Source: Streptomyces sp. V3I7
GTDB lineage: Bacteria > Actinomycetota > Actinomycetes > Streptomycetales > Streptomycetaceae
DNA: 64,000 bases
Reading direction: 5' to 3'
NCBI RefSeq assembly: GCF_030817495.1
Contig: NZ_JAUSZK010000001.1
Span: 1,901,001-1,965,000, forward strand
Shown: positions 25,666 to 54,817 of the stretch, piece after piece
Layout: every line of letters begins with the position of its first letter
How positions within the stretch are numbered: position 1 is the stretch's first letter
Translations under genes and position numbers: made by a program
Notes under the pieces: generated by a model
Told to the model about the DNA's origin: nothing
Database searches by the model: none
What the model saw: only the letters and a program-made list of their open reading frames with translations

Positions 25666-26076
25666 GCAGACGAGTCGGGCTGTACGCCGGGTTCTGTCCT
25701 CCCAGGTCCTCGCGGGCCTGGGAGCGACGGCCATCCATCTAGGGCCGGCGTTGCCACCGGCCTCGTGCGGTCTACCCGCGGACTCGGGCGGGCAGCCCTC
25801 GATCGTCCGCGCAGAGCACTTTTTACGGTGCTCCTTTTGACCTTGCTCCGGGTGGGGTTTACCTAGCTGCCCAGGTCACCCTGGGCACTGGTGGTCTCTT
25901 ACACCACCGTTTCACCCTTACCGAGGACCGAGGTCCCCGGCGGTCTGTTCTCTGTGGCACTGTCCCGCGGGTCACCCCGGGTGGCCGTTAGCCACCACCC
26001 TGCCCTTCGGAGCCCGGACGTTCCTCGGGAAGCCTCCGAAGAGACTCCACGCGGCCGCCCGCCCGGCTCGTCTGCC
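25666..26076 (-). ncRNA. rnpB: RNase P RNA (class A)
   Basis: On the minus strand, the ends pair as the P1 helix: GCCCGGCTCG (26061-26070) with CGAGTCGGGC (25671-25680), extended by TCTGC/GCAGA. On the plus strand the 3' region reads GCCGGGTTCTGTC, and further in comes GTGGTCTCTTACACCACCG and TTTCACCCTTACC. These are the complements of universally conserved RNase P RNA segments. The size of about 410 nt fits actinobacterial type A. It is the catalytic RNA that matures tRNA 5' ends. Confidence 0.93.
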
Positions 26077-47772: not shown

Positions 47773-47851
47773 ATGCAACACCCCGAACGGGAAGATTTTT
47801 TCACCCTTTCACGGGACCGCCGCCACCCCTCAGCATTACGGCTACGGGCCG

Positions 47852-47966
47852 GTAGAGTGTGCGCGTCGTCATCACACCCGTACGGGGGGAAGCCGGTGCA
47901 ATTCCGGCGCTGACCCGCAACCGTGAGCCGCTCCGCGAGGACCGGTGAGCCGGACTGCCCCGCCCG
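47852..47966 (+). promoter_or_regulatory. cobalamin riboswitch
   Basis: Contains GGAAGCCGGTGCAATTCCGG then CGCTGACCCGCAACCGTGAG (47888-47927), the core of cobalamin riboswitches, and AGCCGGACTGCC (47948-47959), the closing B12-box-like end. It lies about 130 bp upstream of the first gene of the ECF operon. Binding of a cobalamin is expected to lower expression. Confidence 0.9.
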
Positions 47967-48094
47967 GACGTGACCGGCTCACGTGCGCCGGCACCCGCCC
48001 GCGTACGGCACCGTCGAGGTTTACGGAGCCGAGCCGCCCGGGGTTCTCCCGTGTGCTGCCCGGCTCCCCCGCAGGGAGAGGCACCCGCCCGACC

Positions 48095-49339
48095 ATGAAC
48101 GTCCTCCGCAGCGCTGCTGCCCTGGCCGCAGTCGGCGTGCTCGCCGCCGCCACGCCCGCCATAGCCGACGGCGCTTCGCCGTCCGCGTCCCCGAAGCCGC
48201 CGGCGCTCCCGTCCGGTCTGTACGGGAAGACGGACCCGAAGTACGACGGCGTCTGGCGCCAGTCGCTGGCACTGCTCGCCCAGCGCACCGTGCACGTGAC
48301 CCCCGCCCCCAAGGCCGTGGACTGGCTGACCGGGCAGCAGTGCGCGAGCGGCGCCTTCCCGGCCTTCCGCGCCGAGCCCCGCAAGGCGTGCGACGCCAAG
48401 GTCATGGTCGACACCAACAGCACGGCCGCCGCCGTCCAGGCCCTGGCGGCGACCGGCGGCCACAGCGACGTCACCAAGTCGGCGATCGCCTGGCTGAAGT
48501 CCGCGCAGAACAAGGACGGCGGCTGGGGCTACACGGCCGGCGGCCCCAGCGACGCGAACTCCACCGCCGTCGTCATCGGCGCCCTCGCGGCCACCGGGAC
48601 GAAGCCCGCGGACGTCGTCAAGGACGGCAAGTCCCCCTACGACGCGCTCCTGACGTTCGCCCTGCCCTGCTCCGGCGACGACGCGGGCGCCTTCGCCTAC
48701 CAGCCCGACAAGAAGGGGAAGCTGGCCGCCAACGCGGACGCGACCGCGGCGGCCGTGCTGGGCGCGCTCGGCCAGGGCATGGCCGCGGGCGCGGGCAAGG
48801 ACGCCGCGAAGGAGGACGGCAAGAAGGCCGGCGCCGGCTGCACCGACTCCGGCAAGGCCACCCCCGAGCGGGCCGCGGCCAACGGCGCCGCCTACCTCGC
48901 CGACGCCGTCGCGAAGACCGGTCACCTCACGTCCGTGATGCCCGGCGCCGACGCCCAGCCCGACTTCGGCAACACCGCGGACGCGGTCGTCGCGCTCGCC
49001 GCCCAGGGCGGCACCGAGCGCACCGGCAAGCCGCTGAAGTGGCTGGAGAAGAACGCCTCCGCCTGGGCCGGGCAGAGCGGCCCGGCCGCCTACGCCCAGC
49101 TGATCTTCGCGGCCCACGCCGCCGGCACCGACCCGCACGACTTCGGCGGCATGGACCTCGTGCGCGCACTGAACGCGACCGGCCCTGCGCCGGCGGTCCA
49201 GCCCAAGCCCAAGCCCGCCGTGGAGGACGAGCAGAAGTCGGGCGGCCGCGGCTGGTGGATCGGCGGTGCCGGTCTCGTCGCGGGCATCGGCGTCGGCCTC
49301 CTGTACAGCGGTCGCAAGAAGAAGCAGCAGCAGGCGTGA
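48095..49339 (+). CDS. surface alpha-toroid protein (prenyltransferase/squalene-oxidase repeats), intrinsic-factor-like
   Basis: 414 residues from ATG 48095. Signal peptide (1-24, VGVLAAATPAIA); alpha-hairpin repeats with STAAAVQALAATGG, WLKSAQNKDGGWGYT and NTADAVVALAAQGG (about 60-350); a Lys/Pro linker; then one membrane helix (WWIGGAGLVAGIGVGLLYSG) and a KKK tail. It is anchored with the toroid outside. Human intrinsic factor and transcobalamin bind B12 with an alpha6/alpha6 toroid of this superfamily. With the cobalamin riboswitch and ECF genes, B12 capture is inferred. Confidence 0.85.
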   Translation: MNVLRSAAALAAVGVLAAATPAIADGASPSASPKPPALPSGLYGKTDPKYDGVWRQSLALLAQRTVHVTPAPKAVDWLTGQQCASGAFPAFRAEPRKACDAKVMVDTNSTAAAVQALAATGGHSDVTKSAIAWLKSAQNKDGGWGYTAGGPSDANSTAVVIGALAATGTKPADVVKDGKSPYDALLTFALPCSGDDAGAFAYQPDKKGKLAANADATAAAVLGALGQGMAAGAGKDAAKEDGKKAGAGCTDSGKATPERAAANGAAYLADAVAKTGHLTSVMPGADAQPDFGNTADAVVALAAQGGTERTGKPLKWLEKNASAWAGQSGPAAYAQLIFAAHAAGTDPHDFGGMDLVRALNATGPAPAVQPKPKPAVEDEQKSGGRGWWIGGAGLVAGIGVGLLYSGRKKKQQQA

Positions 49340-49989
49340 CCACCGTCCGCCGTGCCGCGCTCCTGCTCCTGGCCGGGTTCCTCCTGTGGGGGACCGCCGG
49401 CCAGGCGCAGGCCGCGGGCTACCGCTACTGGTCCTTCTGGGAGCGCGGCGGCGACCACTGGACGTACGCCACCGAGGGCCCGGCGACCGCCCGCCCCGCC
49501 GACGGCGCCGTCCAGGGCTTCCGCTTCTCCGTGAGCGAGGACTCGGCCGACGCCACGCGCCCGCGCGGCGACGCGGACTTCGGCTCGATCTGTGGGAAGA
49601 CCCCCGCCCGCGAGCACCGCAAGCGGGTGGCACTGGTCCTCGACTTCGGTACGGCGGCCGACGCCCCGTCGGGCGAGGGGCCCCCGAAGTCCCGGACCGC
49701 CTGCGCGGTGGTCTCCCCTGACGCGACCACGGCCGAGGCCCTGGCCGCCGTCGCCAAGCCGCTGCGCTATGACACCAACGCCCTGCTGTGCGCCATCGCG
49801 GGGTATCCGCGGCAGGGCTGCGGCGAGCAGGTGGCGGCGCGGCCCGGCGGCGCGAAGCCCGCGACCGCTCCGCAGAAGCCGGCCGCCGCTGATCACGGCC
49901 CGTCCGTCGGGCTGCTGGCGGGGGCGGGTGCGGTGGCGCTGCTGGGCGTGGCCGCGGTGTGGCAGGCACGGCGGCGCCGGGATGCGTGA
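49336..49989 (+). CDS. SCO2322-family surface protein
   Basis: 217 residues from GTG 49336, overlapping the toroid stop (GTGA). Signal peptide ends near AQA/AGY; the exposed domain (about 27-150) opens GYRYWSFWERGGDHWTYA and has Cys-bearing segments (GSICGKTP, RTACAVV, CAIAGYPRQGC). A Pro/Ala linker, membrane helix (GLLAGAGAVALLGVAAVW) and RRRR tail follow. The start resembles the beta domain (DUF4430-type) of cobalamin-binding proteins, by eye only. It is always seen here between toroid and EcfT, so a capture role is inferred. Confidence 0.82.
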   Translation: MTTVRRAALLLLAGFLLWGTAGQAQAAGYRYWSFWERGGDHWTYATEGPATARPADGAVQGFRFSVSEDSADATRPRGDADFGSICGKTPAREHRKRVALVLDFGTAADAPSGEGPPKSRTACAVVSPDATTAEALAAVAKPLRYDTNALLCAIAGYPRQGCGEQVAARPGGAKPATAPQKPAAADHGPSVGLLAGAGAVALLGVAAVWQARRRRDA

Positions 49990-51058
49990 GCGCCGCGGCC
50001 CTGCCTCCGTGCACCCCGGCGCGTGGTGGCTGTGGTCCCTCGGACTGGGGACCGCGGCCACCCGCACCACCAACCCCCTCCTGCTCGCCCTTCTCATAGC
50101 CGCGGCGGGGTATGTGGTGGCCACCCACCGCACCGCCGCCCCCTGGTCCCGCTCCTACGCGGCCTTCGCCAAGCTCGCCCTCGCCGTCCTGCTCATCCGC
50201 CTGGTGTTCGCGGTGGTCCTCGGCTCCCCGATCCCCGGCACGCACGTGATCGCCACTCTGCCCGAAGTCCCGCTGCCCCACTGGGCGCAGGGCATCCGGC
50301 TCGGCGGCCGGGTCACGGCCGAGGCGATGGTCTTCGCCCTGTACGACGGCCTCAAGCTGGCCACGCTCCTCATCTGCGTCGGCGCCGCCAACGCCCTCGC
50401 CAACCCGGCCCGGCTCCTCAAGTCCCTGCCGGGCGCCCTGTACGAGACGGGCGTGGCCGTGGTCGTCGCCCTCACCTTCGCGCCGAACCTCATCGCCGAC
50501 GTCCAGCGGCTGCGTGCCGCCCGCCGGCTGCGCGGCCGTCCGGACAGCGGGCTGCGCGGACTGCTCCAGGTGGGGCTGCCGGTGCTGGAGGGCGCCCTGG
50601 AGCGCTCGGTGGCGCTCGCCGCCTCGATGGACGCCCGCGGCTACGGACGTACCGCCGACGTGCCCGCCCCCGTCCGCCGTACGACCGCCGTCCTCACCCT
50701 CGGTGGGCTGCTCGGCGTCTGCGCGGGGACGTACGGGCTGCTCACCGCGGAGGGCGGCGCCTACGGGCTGCCGGTGCTGGCCGTCTCGGCCGCCGCCGCG
50801 CTCGCGGGGCTGCGCCTCGGCGGCCGCCGTTCGCCGCGCACCCGCTACCGGCCGGACCCCTGGAACGCGCGCGCCTGGCTGGTCGCCGGGTCCGGCACCG
50901 CCGTCGCCGCGCTGCTCTCCCTCGCGGCGGTCCGCGATCCCGCCGCCCTGCACCCCGGAGTCGTCCCGCTCGCCGCGCCCGCGCTGCCGCTGTGGCCGGC
51001 GGCGGCCGTACTCCTCGCCCTGACACCGGCCTTCGTCGCCCCCAAGGAGCCGTCGTGA
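49982..51058 (+). CDS. ecfT: ECF transporter transmembrane component EcfT
   Basis: 358 residues from ATG 49982, overlapping the preceding gene by 8 bp. About six to eight helices. The coupling helix has ASMDARGYGR, the ARG motif by which EcfT contacts the ATPases; LADVQRLRAARRLRGRP-type basic segment precedes it. At 358 residues it is longer than the usual ~260, with extra C-terminal helices. It couples the ATPase pair to the S component. Confidence 0.88.
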   Translation: MRERRGPASVHPGAWWLWSLGLGTAATRTTNPLLLALLIAAAGYVVATHRTAAPWSRSYAAFAKLALAVLLIRLVFAVVLGSPIPGTHVIATLPEVPLPHWAQGIRLGGRVTAEAMVFALYDGLKLATLLICVGAANALANPARLLKSLPGALYETGVAVVVALTFAPNLIADVQRLRAARRLRGRPDSGLRGLLQVGLPVLEGALERSVALAASMDARGYGRTADVPAPVRRTTAVLTLGGLLGVCAGTYGLLTAEGGAYGLPVLAVSAAAALAGLRLGGRRSPRTRYRPDPWNARAWLVAGSGTAVAALLSLAAVRDPAALHPGVVPLAAPALPLWPAAAVLLALTPAFVAPKEPS

Positions 51059-53262
51059 TCCGCTTCGAGGACGTCAGCGTCACCTACGACGGTGCGGCCG
51101 AACCCACCGTGCGCGGCGTGGACTTCGAGGTCCCGGAGGGTGAACTCGTCCTGCTGGTCGGCCCGTCGGGCGTGGGCAAGTCCACGGTCCTCGGCGCGGT
51201 CAGCGGGCTCGTCCCGCACTTCACCGGCGGCACCCTGCGCGGCCGGGTCACGGTCGCCGGCCGCGACACCCGCACCCACAAGCCCCGCGAACTGGCCGAC
51301 GTCGTCGGCACGGTGGGCCAGGATCCGCTCGCCCACTTCGTGACGGACACGGTCGAGGACGAACTCGCGTACGGGATGGAGTCGTTGGGACTCGCGCCCG
51401 CCGTGATGCGGCGCCGGGTGGAGGAGACCCTCGACCTCCTCGGCCTCGCCGCCCTGCGCGACCGTCCCATCGCCACCCTCTCCGGCGGCCAGCAGCAGCG
51501 CGTCGCGATCGGCTCGGTCCTCACCCCGCACCCCGAGGTGCTCGTCCTCGACGAGCCGACCTCGGCGCTCGACCCGGCGGCCGCGGAGGAGGTCCTCGCC
51601 GTCCTCCAGCGCCTGGTCCACGACCTCGGCACGACGGTCCTGATGGCCGAGCACCGCCTGGAGCGGGTGATCCAGTACGCCGACCGGGTCGCCCTGCTGC
51701 CCGCGCCGGGCGCGGCCCCGGTCCTCGGCACCCCGGCCGAGGTGATGGCCGTCGCCCCGGTGTACCCGCCGGTGGTGGACCTGGGCCGGCTGGCGGGCTG
51801 GTCTCCGCTGCCCCTGACGGTGCGCGACGCCCGCCGCCGGGCGGGCGACCTCCGCGAACGCCTCGCCGCCCACTGCCCGGCCCCGCACCCGGGGCTCCCT
51901 GGCATGCGCGAGCCGAGCGCCCCCGCGCGCGAGGAGCCACGGCCCCCCGCCCCCGCCACGCCACGATCCGCGGCCCGCGAGCCGGGCCGACCCGAGGAGC
52001 CACGGCCCTCCGTCCCCACCGCGCCACGATCCGCGATCCGCGAGCCGGGCCGACCCACGTCCCACGCTCCGTCCGCAGCCGCCGCCACCACGGAAACGCC
52101 CCTGCCCGCAGCGCACAGCCCCGAGGCACCCGAACCCCCCACCTACGAAGCCACCCAAGCCGCGCCTTCCGAGACAGGCCGACCCCCGGCCCACGCCCCG
52201 TCCGCAGCCGCCGCCACGAAAACGCCCCCGCCCGCAGCGCACAGGCCCGAGACACCCGAACCCCCCACCCACGAAGCCACCCAAGCCGCGCCTTCCGAGG
52301 CAGGCCGACCCCCGGCCCACACTCCCTCCGCAGCCGCCGCCACGAAAACGCCCCCGCCCGCAGCGCACAGGCCCGAGACACCCGAGCCCCCCACCCACGG
52401 CGCCACCCAAGCCGGGCCTTCCAGCGAGCCCGAGCCCGCCCCCCGCTCCTTCCTCTCCCTCCTCCGCCGCCTCCGCAAGCGCACTCCCGACGCCACGGCC
52501 CCCACCTCCGCGCCGGTCGCCGAGGTGCGCGGGCTCGCCGTGCGCCGGGCCCGCGTCCAGGCGCTGCGGCACGTCGACCTCACCGTCACCCCGGGCGAGA
52601 CCATCGCCCTCATGGGCCGTAACGGCGCCGGCAAGTCCACGCTGCTGGGATCGCTCGTCGGGCTCGTCGAGCCGACGTCCGGTTCCGTGCGGGTCGGCGG
52701 GGCGGTCCCCCATCGCACCGCGCCGCGCGAACTGGTGCGCCGCGTCGGCCTCGTACCGCAGGAGCCCCGCGATCTGCTGTACGCCGACACGGTCGCCGCC
52801 GAGTGCGCGGCCGCCGACCGGGACGCGCAGGCCGAGCCCGGCACCTGCCGCGCGCTGGTCGGCGAACTGCTCCCGGGGATCGCCGACGACACGCACCCGC
52901 GCGACCTGTCCGAGGGCCAGCGGCTGGCGCTCGCCCTGGCCGTCGTGCTGACCGCCCGCCCTCCCCTGCTCCTGCTGGACGAGCCGACCCGCGGCCTGGA
53001 CTACGCGGCGAAGGCCCGCCTGGTCGCCGTGCTTCGTGGCCTCGCCGCGCAGGGGCACGCGATCGTGCTGGCCACCCACGACGTGGAGCTGGCCGCCGAA
53101 CTCGCCCACCGGGTCGTGCTGCTGGCCGAGGGCGAGGTGATCGCGGACGGGCCGACGGCGGACATCGTGGTCTCCTCCCCCTCCTTCGCCCCGCAGGTCA
53201 CCAAGATCCTCGCCCCGCAGAAGTGGCTCACGGTCGCCCAGGTACGAAAGGCACTCGCGTGA
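51055..53262 (+). CDS. fused ECF ATPase (EcfA-EcfA'), two ABC domains
   Basis: 735 residues from GTG 51055, overlapping the ecfT stop. Domain 1 (about 1-235): GPSGVGKST, LSGGQQQR, VLVLDEPTSALDP. Domain 2 (about 485-720): GRNGAGKST, LSEGQRLALA, LLLLDEPTRGLDY. Both Walker sets are complete. Signature 2 is LSEGQ. Between them lies a ~190-residue Pro/Ala/Thr/Glu linker with 42-residue repeats. Most ECF systems use two separate or closely fused ATPases; the long repeat linker is unusual. Confidence 0.9.
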   Translation: MIRFEDVSVTYDGAAEPTVRGVDFEVPEGELVLLVGPSGVGKSTVLGAVSGLVPHFTGGTLRGRVTVAGRDTRTHKPRELADVVGTVGQDPLAHFVTDTVEDELAYGMESLGLAPAVMRRRVEETLDLLGLAALRDRPIATLSGGQQQRVAIGSVLTPHPEVLVLDEPTSALDPAAAEEVLAVLQRLVHDLGTTVLMAEHRLERVIQYADRVALLPAPGAAPVLGTPAEVMAVAPVYPPVVDLGRLAGWSPLPLTVRDARRRAGDLRERLAAHCPAPHPGLPGMREPSAPAREEPRPPAPATPRSAAREPGRPEEPRPSVPTAPRSAIREPGRPTSHAPSAAAATTETPLPAAHSPEAPEPPTYEATQAAPSETGRPPAHAPSAAAATKTPPPAAHRPETPEPPTHEATQAAPSEAGRPPAHTPSAAAATKTPPPAAHRPETPEPPTHGATQAGPSSEPEPAPRSFLSLLRRLRKRTPDATAPTSAPVAEVRGLAVRRARVQALRHVDLTVTPGETIALMGRNGAGKSTLLGSLVGLVEPTSGSVRVGGAVPHRTAPRELVRRVGLVPQEPRDLLYADTVAAECAAADRDAQAEPGTCRALVGELLPGIADDTHPRDLSEGQRLALALAVVLTARPPLLLLDEPTRGLDYAAKARLVAVLRGLAAQGHAIVLATHDVELAAELAHRVVLLAEGEVIADGPTADIVVSSPSFAPQVTKILAPQKWLTVAQVRKALA
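52141..52392 (+). repeat. 126-bp tandem repeats in the ATPase linker
   Basis: Two nearly identical 126-bp units (52141-52266, 52267-52392). A more diverged, incomplete unit lies before (from about 52040), and the start of another after (52393 on). Each encodes 42 residues, beginning near THEATQAAPSEAGRPPAH. The period is a multiple of three, so copy-number change keeps the frame. Confidence 0.92.
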
Positions 53263-54089
53263 GCACGACCACCCGCACCACCACTCGCCAGTCCCGCCCC
53301 ATCCGCCTCGGCCCGCGCTCCACCGCCGCCCTGATCCTGGTCAGCGCGGTCGGGCTCGTCGCCTTCGGGTGGCCCTTCCTCGCCCCGCCCGGCTCGCAGC
53401 TGAGCGCCCACGCGCAGGACGCGCCCTGGCTCTTCGCGGGGCTGCTGGTGCTCCTCGTCGCCGTCGTCGCCGCGACGATCTCCGAGTCGGGGCTCGGCCC
53501 GAAGGCCGTGGCCATGCTGGGCGTGCTGGCCGCGACCGGGGCGGCCCTGCGCCCGATCGGCGCGGGCACCGCCGGGATCGAGCCCATGTTCTTCCTCATG
53601 GTGCTCAGCGGCCGCGTCCTCGGTCCGGGCTTCGGCTTCGTCCTCGGCTCCCTCACCATGTTCGCGTCCGCGCTGCTCACCGGCGGGGTGGGGCCCTGGA
53701 TGCCGTTCCAGATGCTGGCGATGGGCTGGTTCTCGATGGGCGCGGGGCTGCTCCCCGGCGCCGACCGGCTGCGCGGCCGGGGGGAGCTGCTGCTGCTCGC
53801 GGGCTACGGCTTCCTCGCCGCCTTCGCCTACGGCACGGTCATGAACCTCGCGGGCTGGCCGTTCATGGGCGCGCTGGCCTCGAACATCGCCTTCGACGCG
53901 CACGCCGCGGTCCCCGCCAACCTGGCCCGCTTCGTCGCGTACTGCCTGGCCACCTCGCTCGGCTGGGACCTGGGCCGGGCCGTCTGCACCGTCGCCTTGA
54001 CCCTGGCGCTCGGCCCGACGCTCCTGCGCGCCCTGCGCCGGGCCACACGCCGGGCGGCCTTCGAGACGGCGGCCGCCTTCGAGCGGTGA
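53259..54089 (+). CDS. ECF transporter S component (substrate-binding membrane protein)
   Basis: 276 residues from GTG 53259, overlapping the ATPase stop (GTGA). About six to seven helices. Features of S components: SGRVLGPGFGFVLGSLTMFASALLTGG and VGPWMPFQMLAMGWFSMGAGLLPG. By context it should bind cobalamin or a precursor (CbrT-like) or cobalt. The riboswitch favours a corrinoid. It is the last gene of the five-gene operon. Confidence 0.87.
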   Translation: MSTTTRTTTRQSRPIRLGPRSTAALILVSAVGLVAFGWPFLAPPGSQLSAHAQDAPWLFAGLLVLLVAVVAATISESGLGPKAVAMLGVLAATGAALRPIGAGTAGIEPMFFLMVLSGRVLGPGFGFVLGSLTMFASALLTGGVGPWMPFQMLAMGWFSMGAGLLPGADRLRGRGELLLLAGYGFLAAFAYGTVMNLAGWPFMGALASNIAFDAHAAVPANLARFVAYCLATSLGWDLGRAVCTVALTLALGPTLLRALRRATRRAAFETAAAFER

Positions 54090-54397
54090 CCGGCCCCACA
54101 TGACGCACCTCACGTACGAGGCGCGATCGTAGACCTTTTCAACCGAATTGCAGCTATTTGCACGCCGCCTGACCTGCGGTTTGCGGCGCAGGTCACACAC
54201 CTCCCCCCGCTCCCCAATTCGGCCGGAAATAGTAAAAGGGGGCATTGCGGGCACTTCTCGCAGCTGCTTCTCTGGACGAGTCGCCAGGCGCCACGAGCCC
54301 TCCCGGGCCGCGGCGCCGACGTATGCCCCCCGCCACGCGGCGGGCGCGCGTGGCTCCGTTCACGGCGACTCCCTGTCCCCCGCAGAAGAGGTTGTCC
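54090..54397. other. 308-bp region between the ECF operon and the lysozyme-like gene, with alternative hairpins
   Basis: TGACCTGC (54170-54177) can pair with GCAGGTCA (54188-54195), while CGCCGC just before it can pair with GCGGCG (54183-54188), so two overlapping hairpins exclude each other. This may be the operon terminator or part of a leader. The rest, including an A/T-richer stretch at 54130-54165 and AGTAAAAGGGGG near 54231, holds no ORF or known RNA element I can support. Confidence 0.4.
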
Positions 54398-54817
54398 GTG
54401 TCTGTTTCGTCCGTCCGTCGTCTTGTCACCCCGAAGAAGGCCCTTGCCGGCGCCGCCATGGCAGCCGCCGCGACGGGCATGATCCTCTCCTCCGCGCCCG
54501 CACAGGCCGACACCGGATCCGCCTCCTCCGCCTCCGCTCAGGCGGTCGCGCACCGGATGATCCCGGACGCCGCGCAGTACCGGGCGTTCGACAAGATCGT
54601 CTCGCACGAGAGCGGCTGGAACATCCACGCCACCAACAGCTCCTCCGGTGCCTACGGCCTGGTCCAGGCGCTGCCCGCCTCGAAGATGTCGAGCGCCGGC
54701 ACCGACTGGAAGGAGAACCCGGCCACGCAGATCAAGTGGGGCCTGGACTACATGAACTCCCGATACGGCAGCCCCGTCGACGCCTGGAACTTCTGGCAGG
54801 CCCACGGCTGGTACTGA
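54398..54817 (+). CDS. small secreted lysozyme-like (transglycosylase SLT-type) protein
   Basis: 139 residues from GTG 54398 with AGAGG 6 bases upstream. Signal peptide (about 1-36, GAAMAAAATGMILSSAPAQA). The domain opens FDKIVSHESGWNIHATN, where E of HESGW matches the catalytic Glu of transglycosylases, and continues SSGAYGLVQALPASKM, WGLDYMNSRYGSP and WNFWQAHGWY. These are typical of Streptomyces small resuscitation/lysozyme-like secreted proteins. Expected to cleave peptidoglycan. Runs in the same direction as the ECF operon but has its own long leader. Confidence 0.87.
   Translation: MSVSSVRRLVTPKKALAGAAMAAAATGMILSSAPAQADTGSASSASAQAVAHRMIPDAAQYRAFDKIVSHESGWNIHATNSSSGAYGLVQALPASKMSSAGTDWKENPATQIKWGLDYMNSRYGSPVDAWNFWQAHGWY

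Follow-up and report, generated by a model that had tools for sequence, protein, structure and literature searches.

Streptomyces sp. V3I7 carries, within a 64,000-nucleotide stretch of contig NZ_JAUSZK010000001.1 (positions 1,901,001 to 1,965,000; hereafter the window, with position 1 as its first letter), a cobalamin riboswitch followed by an operon that combines an energy-coupling factor (ECF) transporter with proteins of the SCO2321 and SCO2322 families. The riboswitch aptamer (RF00174) lies on the forward strand at 47833-47981, scoring 36.0 bits against an Rfam gathering threshold of 31.5 (E 1.7e-05), and is one of five matches to this family in the genome, where a whole-genome search again gave it 36 bits. 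An initial annotation had recognised the riboswitch, which is upheld, and had begun the element at 47852, which is not, as the aptamer begins at 47833. On its 3' side come, on the same strand, genes for an alpha-alpha toroid protein (SCO2321_fam, 48095-49339), an SCO2322 family protein (49336-49989), the transmembrane coupling protein EcfT (49982-51058), EcfA and EcfA' fused in one chain (51055-53262) and the substrate-binding membrane component EcfS (53259-54089). All five overlap, and the gene ends read from the sequence agree with the junctions as first described: GTGA joins the toroid gene to that for SCO2322, EcfT to EcfA-A' and EcfA-A' to EcfS, with 8 bp shared between SCO2322 and EcfT. 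The stretch between aptamer and start codon (47980-48094) is kept among Streptomyces operons, including GGCACCGTCGAGG..TACGGAGCCGAGCC and further on CTGCCCGGCTCCC..GGGAGAGGCA, and may be the expression platform of the riboswitch, hiding the ribosome site.

The last three genes hold all the parts of an ECF transporter, each above its cut-off. EcfT belongs to the CbiQ family (PF02361, 31.1 bits, cut-off 25), the fused EcfA-A' contains two ATPase domains, matched by PF00005 in two stretches (187.6 bits), and EcfS is matched by PF12822 (ECF_trnsprt, 31.3 bits, cut-off 30.7). A Pfam scan of EcfS found no match to CbiM, and a sequence comparison with the PDB returned nothing meaningful for it, and so no relative among solved structures. 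The linker between the ATPase domains (51892-52480) is long, rich in alanine and proline and, by eye, contains near-repeats.

The first two genes encode proteins of similar plan, each with a signal peptide, a C-terminal helix and a basic tail. The toroid protein exceeds the curated cut-off of the SCO2321 family (NF053823) with 593.1 bits against 300, has weak additional matches to squalene-cyclase and prenyltransferase families, and ends in a hydrophobic helix (around residues 387-406, by eye) and basic tail at 49253-49336. The SCO2322 protein likewise exceeds the cut-off of its family (NF040672) with 231 bits against 85; a search with it returned the protein itself (P0121) first and then one from another Streptomyces (P0122) with 79% identity. 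Its structure was predicted with a local distance difference test score (pLDDT) of 86.3, the model placing a C-terminal helix at residues 192-216 (49909-49983), while the GPS-CTERM sorting domain (NF040681) scored 24.7 bits on this protein, below its cut-off of 28. The hydrophobic C-terminal helices and basic tails reported in the initial annotation are thus present in both products; what it had not seen is that the SCO2322 domain, and apparently the toroid as well, is permuted.

The SCO2322 domain of the window is a circular permutation of a beta domain that other lineages carry in canonical order, also in natural fusions to a toroid. In many lineages the SCO2322 model matches in two pieces or in part only, and when 27 such proteins were read, 26 had a domain that finishes with the opening segment of SCO2322 (GYRYWSFW...W.Y...GP...DG.V.G.RF) and starts with the closing one (VALV.DFG...C....LLC.I.GYP..GCG), the exception being a protein of genome G062 that is permuted like SCO2322. 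A profile made from these 26 canonical domains matches SCO2322 proteins first in columns of about 84-126 and then in columns of about 8-83. In the window protein, residues 28-64 (GYRYW...GFRF, 49417-49527) align to canonical columns 84-120 and represent the C-terminal half of the canonical domain, here N-terminal, and residues 96-166 (KRVAL...GCGEQV, 49621-49833), which align from canonical column 16 and are colinear with the canonical domain once the order of SCO2322 is swapped back, represent its N-terminal half, here C-terminal. When 61 SCO2322 rows were compared with the 26 canonical domains by hhalign, the native order gave 37 columns with a score of 91 and the swapped-back order 99 columns with a score of 154 (E 2e-27); a duplicated SCO2322 profile aligned in a single run of 104 columns that crosses the junction of the original C- and N-termini, and the best of 20 column shuffles scored 21.7. 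Sequential fold searches with SCO2322 alone found no matches, as the permutation would explain.

The permuted form is found in Streptomycetaceae, Kribbella, Intrasporangiaceae, Raineyella and others. On a tree of EcfA and EcfS, made by a quick method from 85 rows with the permuted rows thinned by hand, it requires two changes, one of them forced by the starred branches, and is placed among canonical rows. Both forms of the domain occur together in one genome of the genus Streptomyces (G171), in separate operons: one locus (L104:6134-13128) has, beside a canonical beta domain, EcfT-A-S and a toroid, a gene matched by DUF4430 with 36.4 bits (cut-off 23.8), and the other (L116) has the permuted form.

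The toroid of the window is strongly suggested by profile comparison to be permuted too, relative to that of the fused toroid-beta family. A SCO2321 profile of 41 rows (the window protein and every third of P0001-P0120) aligned to the fused family over 159 columns in native order (score 114.8) and, when duplicated, over 270 columns across the junction (score 148.8), consistent with its earlier designation as the alpha-type half. Rotation of the profile, 12 columns at a time, gave the greatest score for chains starting at about residues 229-253, the best of 20 shuffles reaching 21.3. This peak falls on a charged, flexible stretch of approximate boundaries (residues 228-258 or so, 48776-48868), at which the two ends of a chain in the other order would be joined. 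Profile matches assigned 14 toroids to the order of the window (11 from Streptomyces and three from family f16) and 33 to the rotated order, leaving nine undecided; a regular-expression test of the half order was discarded as too insensitive, its motif pair being absent from 176 of 190. The permutation is less certain here than for the beta domain because the repeats of the toroid resemble one another.

Elsewhere in the phylum the same operon contains the SCO2322-like domain in the other chain order, in some cases fused to the toroid, and it is one such natural fusion, P0254, that links the family to animal vitamin B12 carriers. Its predicted model (pLDDT 86.9, predicted template modelling score 0.84) was compared with the PDB using Foldseek, and ranks 1-11 by E-value were all transcobalamin or intrinsic factor (2.6e-08 to 2.6e-07), over 417-467 aligned columns but with a root mean square deviation of 21-22 A, the two domains being placed differently relative to each other in the model; the window proteins are tied to P0254 through profiles only. 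Intrinsic factor, transcobalamin and haptocorrin share with P0254 the arrangement of an alpha-alpha toroid followed by a beta domain. In the window, by contrast, the halves are two membrane-anchored proteins from two genes, with the beta domain permuted and the toroid apparently so, and not one chain with alpha preceding beta in canonical order; on this account they are likened to intrinsic factor and transcobalamin without being classed as members of that family. Searches of the PDB by sequence with the toroid, SCO2322, P0254 and a profile of the fused family recovered no transcobalamin, the results being cyclases, complement proteins, cell-wall repeats or nothing. Other arrangements include toroid-beta-beta in Euzebya tangerina (P0244), toroid-beta-toroid-beta (L084:6182-10453), which is a plausible intermediate stage for circular permutation, and a toroid fused to a segment resembling an S component (P0282).

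Squalene-hopene cyclases and their relatives head the matches of the toroid, both by sequence and by rigid fold, and its database name is prenyltransferase/squalene oxidase repeat protein, so that it might instead be a terpene cyclase-like or prenyltransferase-like enzyme that stands in the operon by happenstance. This is highly improbable. The protein is secreted and anchored, and relatives from other lineages form one chain with the beta domain or, in P0282, with the S-component-like segment. A B12 riboswitch match also lies upstream in 50 of the 60 related regions described below. The motif DxDDT, which with DxDD we take to be the catalytic signature of type II terpene cyclases, is absent from all 120 toroid homologues listed, and DxDD is present in 17, of which 14 have it, by position, in a linker or tail and three inside the toroid.

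A counterpart system is based on DUF4430 (PF14478), which was matched in 42 of 246 genomes of the phylum. Nine of ten DUF4430 regions examined have the order DUF4430-EcfT-EcfA-EcfA-EcfS-toroid, and all nine possess a strong cobalamin riboswitch on the same strand (71.8-115.7 bits), about 1.1-3.3 kb before the DUF4430 domain; the tenth (L264) has only the DUF4430 match, with a riboswitch below threshold. These operons resemble that of the window in their parts and their upstream riboswitch, but they differ in having the toroid gene last and the riboswitch at a distance from the DUF4430 gene, and they form a separate branch of the EcfA and EcfS tree. From the operon order, SCO2322-like domains occupy the place that DUF4430 holds in other families, directly before the EcfT of a like transporter. 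The two domains are also related by sequence, as first proposed, if weakly and by way of the canonical-order relatives: the canonical beta profile aligned with 29 DUF4430 rows over 104 colinear columns with a score of 29.7, compared with 15.4 for the best of 50 shuffles. A stricter filter, which removed nine of the 29 rows, gave 35.4, the result with 29 rows being the one relied upon. This profile-profile link is weak, and Pfam's DUF4430 model had no match in SCO2322 or in the nine beta relatives scanned. In animal carriers DUF4430 is located at the C-terminus (PMC4350170). In the two of these DUF4430 operons that were inspected for it (L256:1574-4255 and L257:1448-3994), the first gene after the riboswitch specifies a large beta-propeller of the PQQ type (PF13360, 98.7 and 75.8 bits; DUF5719) and is followed by DUF4430, and in region L265 the open reading frame (ORF) between riboswitch and DUF4430 has no family match. 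Such a propeller could be a further capture part, by analogy with the Bacteroides B12 binder BtuG, also a beta-propeller.

The linkage of these genes extends across the phylum. Among 396 of its genomes, the SCO2322 model matched 54 and the SCO2321 model 125 at E <= 0.001, with 13 and 12, respectively, above the family cut-offs. From part of the matching places, 60 regions in 55 genomes were taken for their beta or toroid match, without selection for ECF genes, and in 43 of them toroid, beta, EcfT, EcfA and EcfS co-occur; the same set is found together in 43 of 80 named loci, a list limited to the best 80. Of the 60 regions, 50 have a cobalamin riboswitch match (E <= 0.001) in the correct orientation within the preceding 900 bp, and these matches divide into 25 that exceed the gathering score and 25 that fall short of it. 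The ten regions without one comprise four in which the sequence ends 57-313 bases upstream, one (L075) whose match comes after the first toroid gene, and five plain misses. Counted as misses were L100, where an AdoCbl match was below threshold (29 bits, E 0.2), and the Streptomyces loci L108, L109 and L113; a loss of the riboswitch from these three was considered and rejected, for although Rfam found none, the core GGGGGAAGCCGG or a near form of it could be seen by eye upstream. Among the 19 named genomes, drawn from the 80 loci and with contigs matched by position, 17 have a riboswitch match directly ahead of the first gene, eight over and nine under the gathering score. Together with the nine DUF4430 operons, these counts agree with the expectation that homologous operons would mostly be linked to riboswitches, and the recurrence of the gene set with its riboswitch is more than chance.

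The same survey contains evidence that weighs against a strict two-part receptor. In 24 of the 80 named loci, one of which (L168) begins at a contig edge, beta and EcfTAS are found with no toroid in the region, and 11 of the 19 named genomes, some of them metagenome-assembled genomes (MAGs), have no SCO2321 family match at all. The order riboswitch-beta-T-A-S without a toroid is seen in Kribbella, Intrasporangiaceae, Raineyella and two small MAGs (L166 and L176), and four genomes (loci L069, L072, L079 and L086) have their toroid away from the beta gene, each behind a separate riboswitch match of its own. The beta protein can therefore work without a toroid of the SCO2321 family, or another protein substitutes for it. 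Of the original proposal of an intrinsic-factor-like receptor split over two anchored proteins, the alpha and beta homology is well supported, and obligate pairing is not: that both halves are always needed finds no support as a general rule. A possible extension of this, which we think unlikely, is that the beta protein is the essential corrinoid-handling partner of EcfS, to which the toroid is an optional addition acting as a lid, affinity booster or scavenger of other cobamides. The toroids located elsewhere can be read in the opposite sense as well, in that four of the five canonical-beta regions that lack a toroid belong to genomes that have one at another site (L068/L069, L071/L072, L078/L079 and L085/L086); the fifth (L089) has only 57 bases of sequence ahead of its beta domain, and its genome gave no SCO2321 match. 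Furthermore, the toroid-beta fusions point to joint work where both are present.

We consider it likely that the operon encodes an ECF-type importer of corrinoids together with a split, permuted capture module resembling intrinsic factor. Toroid and beta domain, as two separately anchored surface proteins, would form an alpha-beta complex that sandwiches a cobamide outside the membrane, as animal carriers do, keeping it near the membrane and handing it to EcfS; EcfT and EcfA-A' would then drive the EcfS-bound cobamide inward using ATP, and high internal cobalamin would cause the riboswitch to shut the operon. The host genome encodes a CbiC homologue, so the importer probably serves salvage. 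That homologue also implies that the corrin ring is probably made by the host itself, which would fit a cargo of cobalt or of a cobalamin building block, such as cobinamide or the lower-ligand base, instead of complete cobamides. Such a cargo would also be compatible with the riboswitch and with the naming of EcfT as CbiQ by Pfam, and cobalamin riboswitches are also described ahead of cobalt transport genes in Streptomyces (PMC8079986). This possibility appears more doubtful still than that of an optional toroid, as EcfS is a PF12822 protein with no CbiM match, and a bare metal ion would hardly call for a pair of large surface domains folded like the animal cobalamin carriers.

As an importer of corrinoids, the system would join ECF-CbrT of Lactobacillus delbrueckii, an ECF transporter for vitamin B12 in which, according to its description (PMC5997447), the S component CbrT is the substrate binder and takes up cobalamin with a Kd of 9.2 nM as well as binding cobinamide. 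The window system differs in adding dedicated surface proteins and in having its ECF module in an operon of its own. BtuH of gut Bacteroidetes is likewise a B12-binding protein, but one with immunoglobulin-like domains and a globular C-terminal binding domain, and an excerpt of its description (PMC8941943) mentions no toroid. ECF transporters are usually pictured with the membrane S component catching the substrate (PMC5997447), a picture that an extracellular corrinoid receptor, if true, would change for B12 in actinobacteria. Among the papers listed by searches of the open-licence PMC literature, none was on SCO2321, SCO2322 or an intrinsic-factor-like ECF partner, one search yielding only an unrelated article about a cell-penetrating peptide; the present analysis would tie two families for which no described function was found to a concrete role, and would give the animal B12 carriers a counterpart in bacteria. 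ECF systems with B12 riboswitches were reportedly listed by Rodionov et al. in 2009. More broadly, ECF uptake of B12 in Actinobacteria may be fed by a true two-domain relative of intrinsic factor, its halves split and each permuted in Streptomyces and their kin with tandem stages surviving, and a bacterial ECF capture module may have been the source of the animal carriers or may have a common origin with them, a scenario for and against which the balance seems to us even. The locus provides in any case an example of natural circular permutation, certain for one domain and very probable for its partner, of which canonical, tandem and permuted forms are all extant.

Downstream of EcfS, and apparently outside the operon, lies an ORF (54245-54817) whose C-terminal sequence (...ESGWNIHATNSSSGAYGLVQALPASKM...) resembles what we take to be a transglycosylase domain. 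At a greater distance, the window also contains a bacterial class A RNase P RNA on the minus strand at 25667-26070 (Rfam, 291.8 bits).

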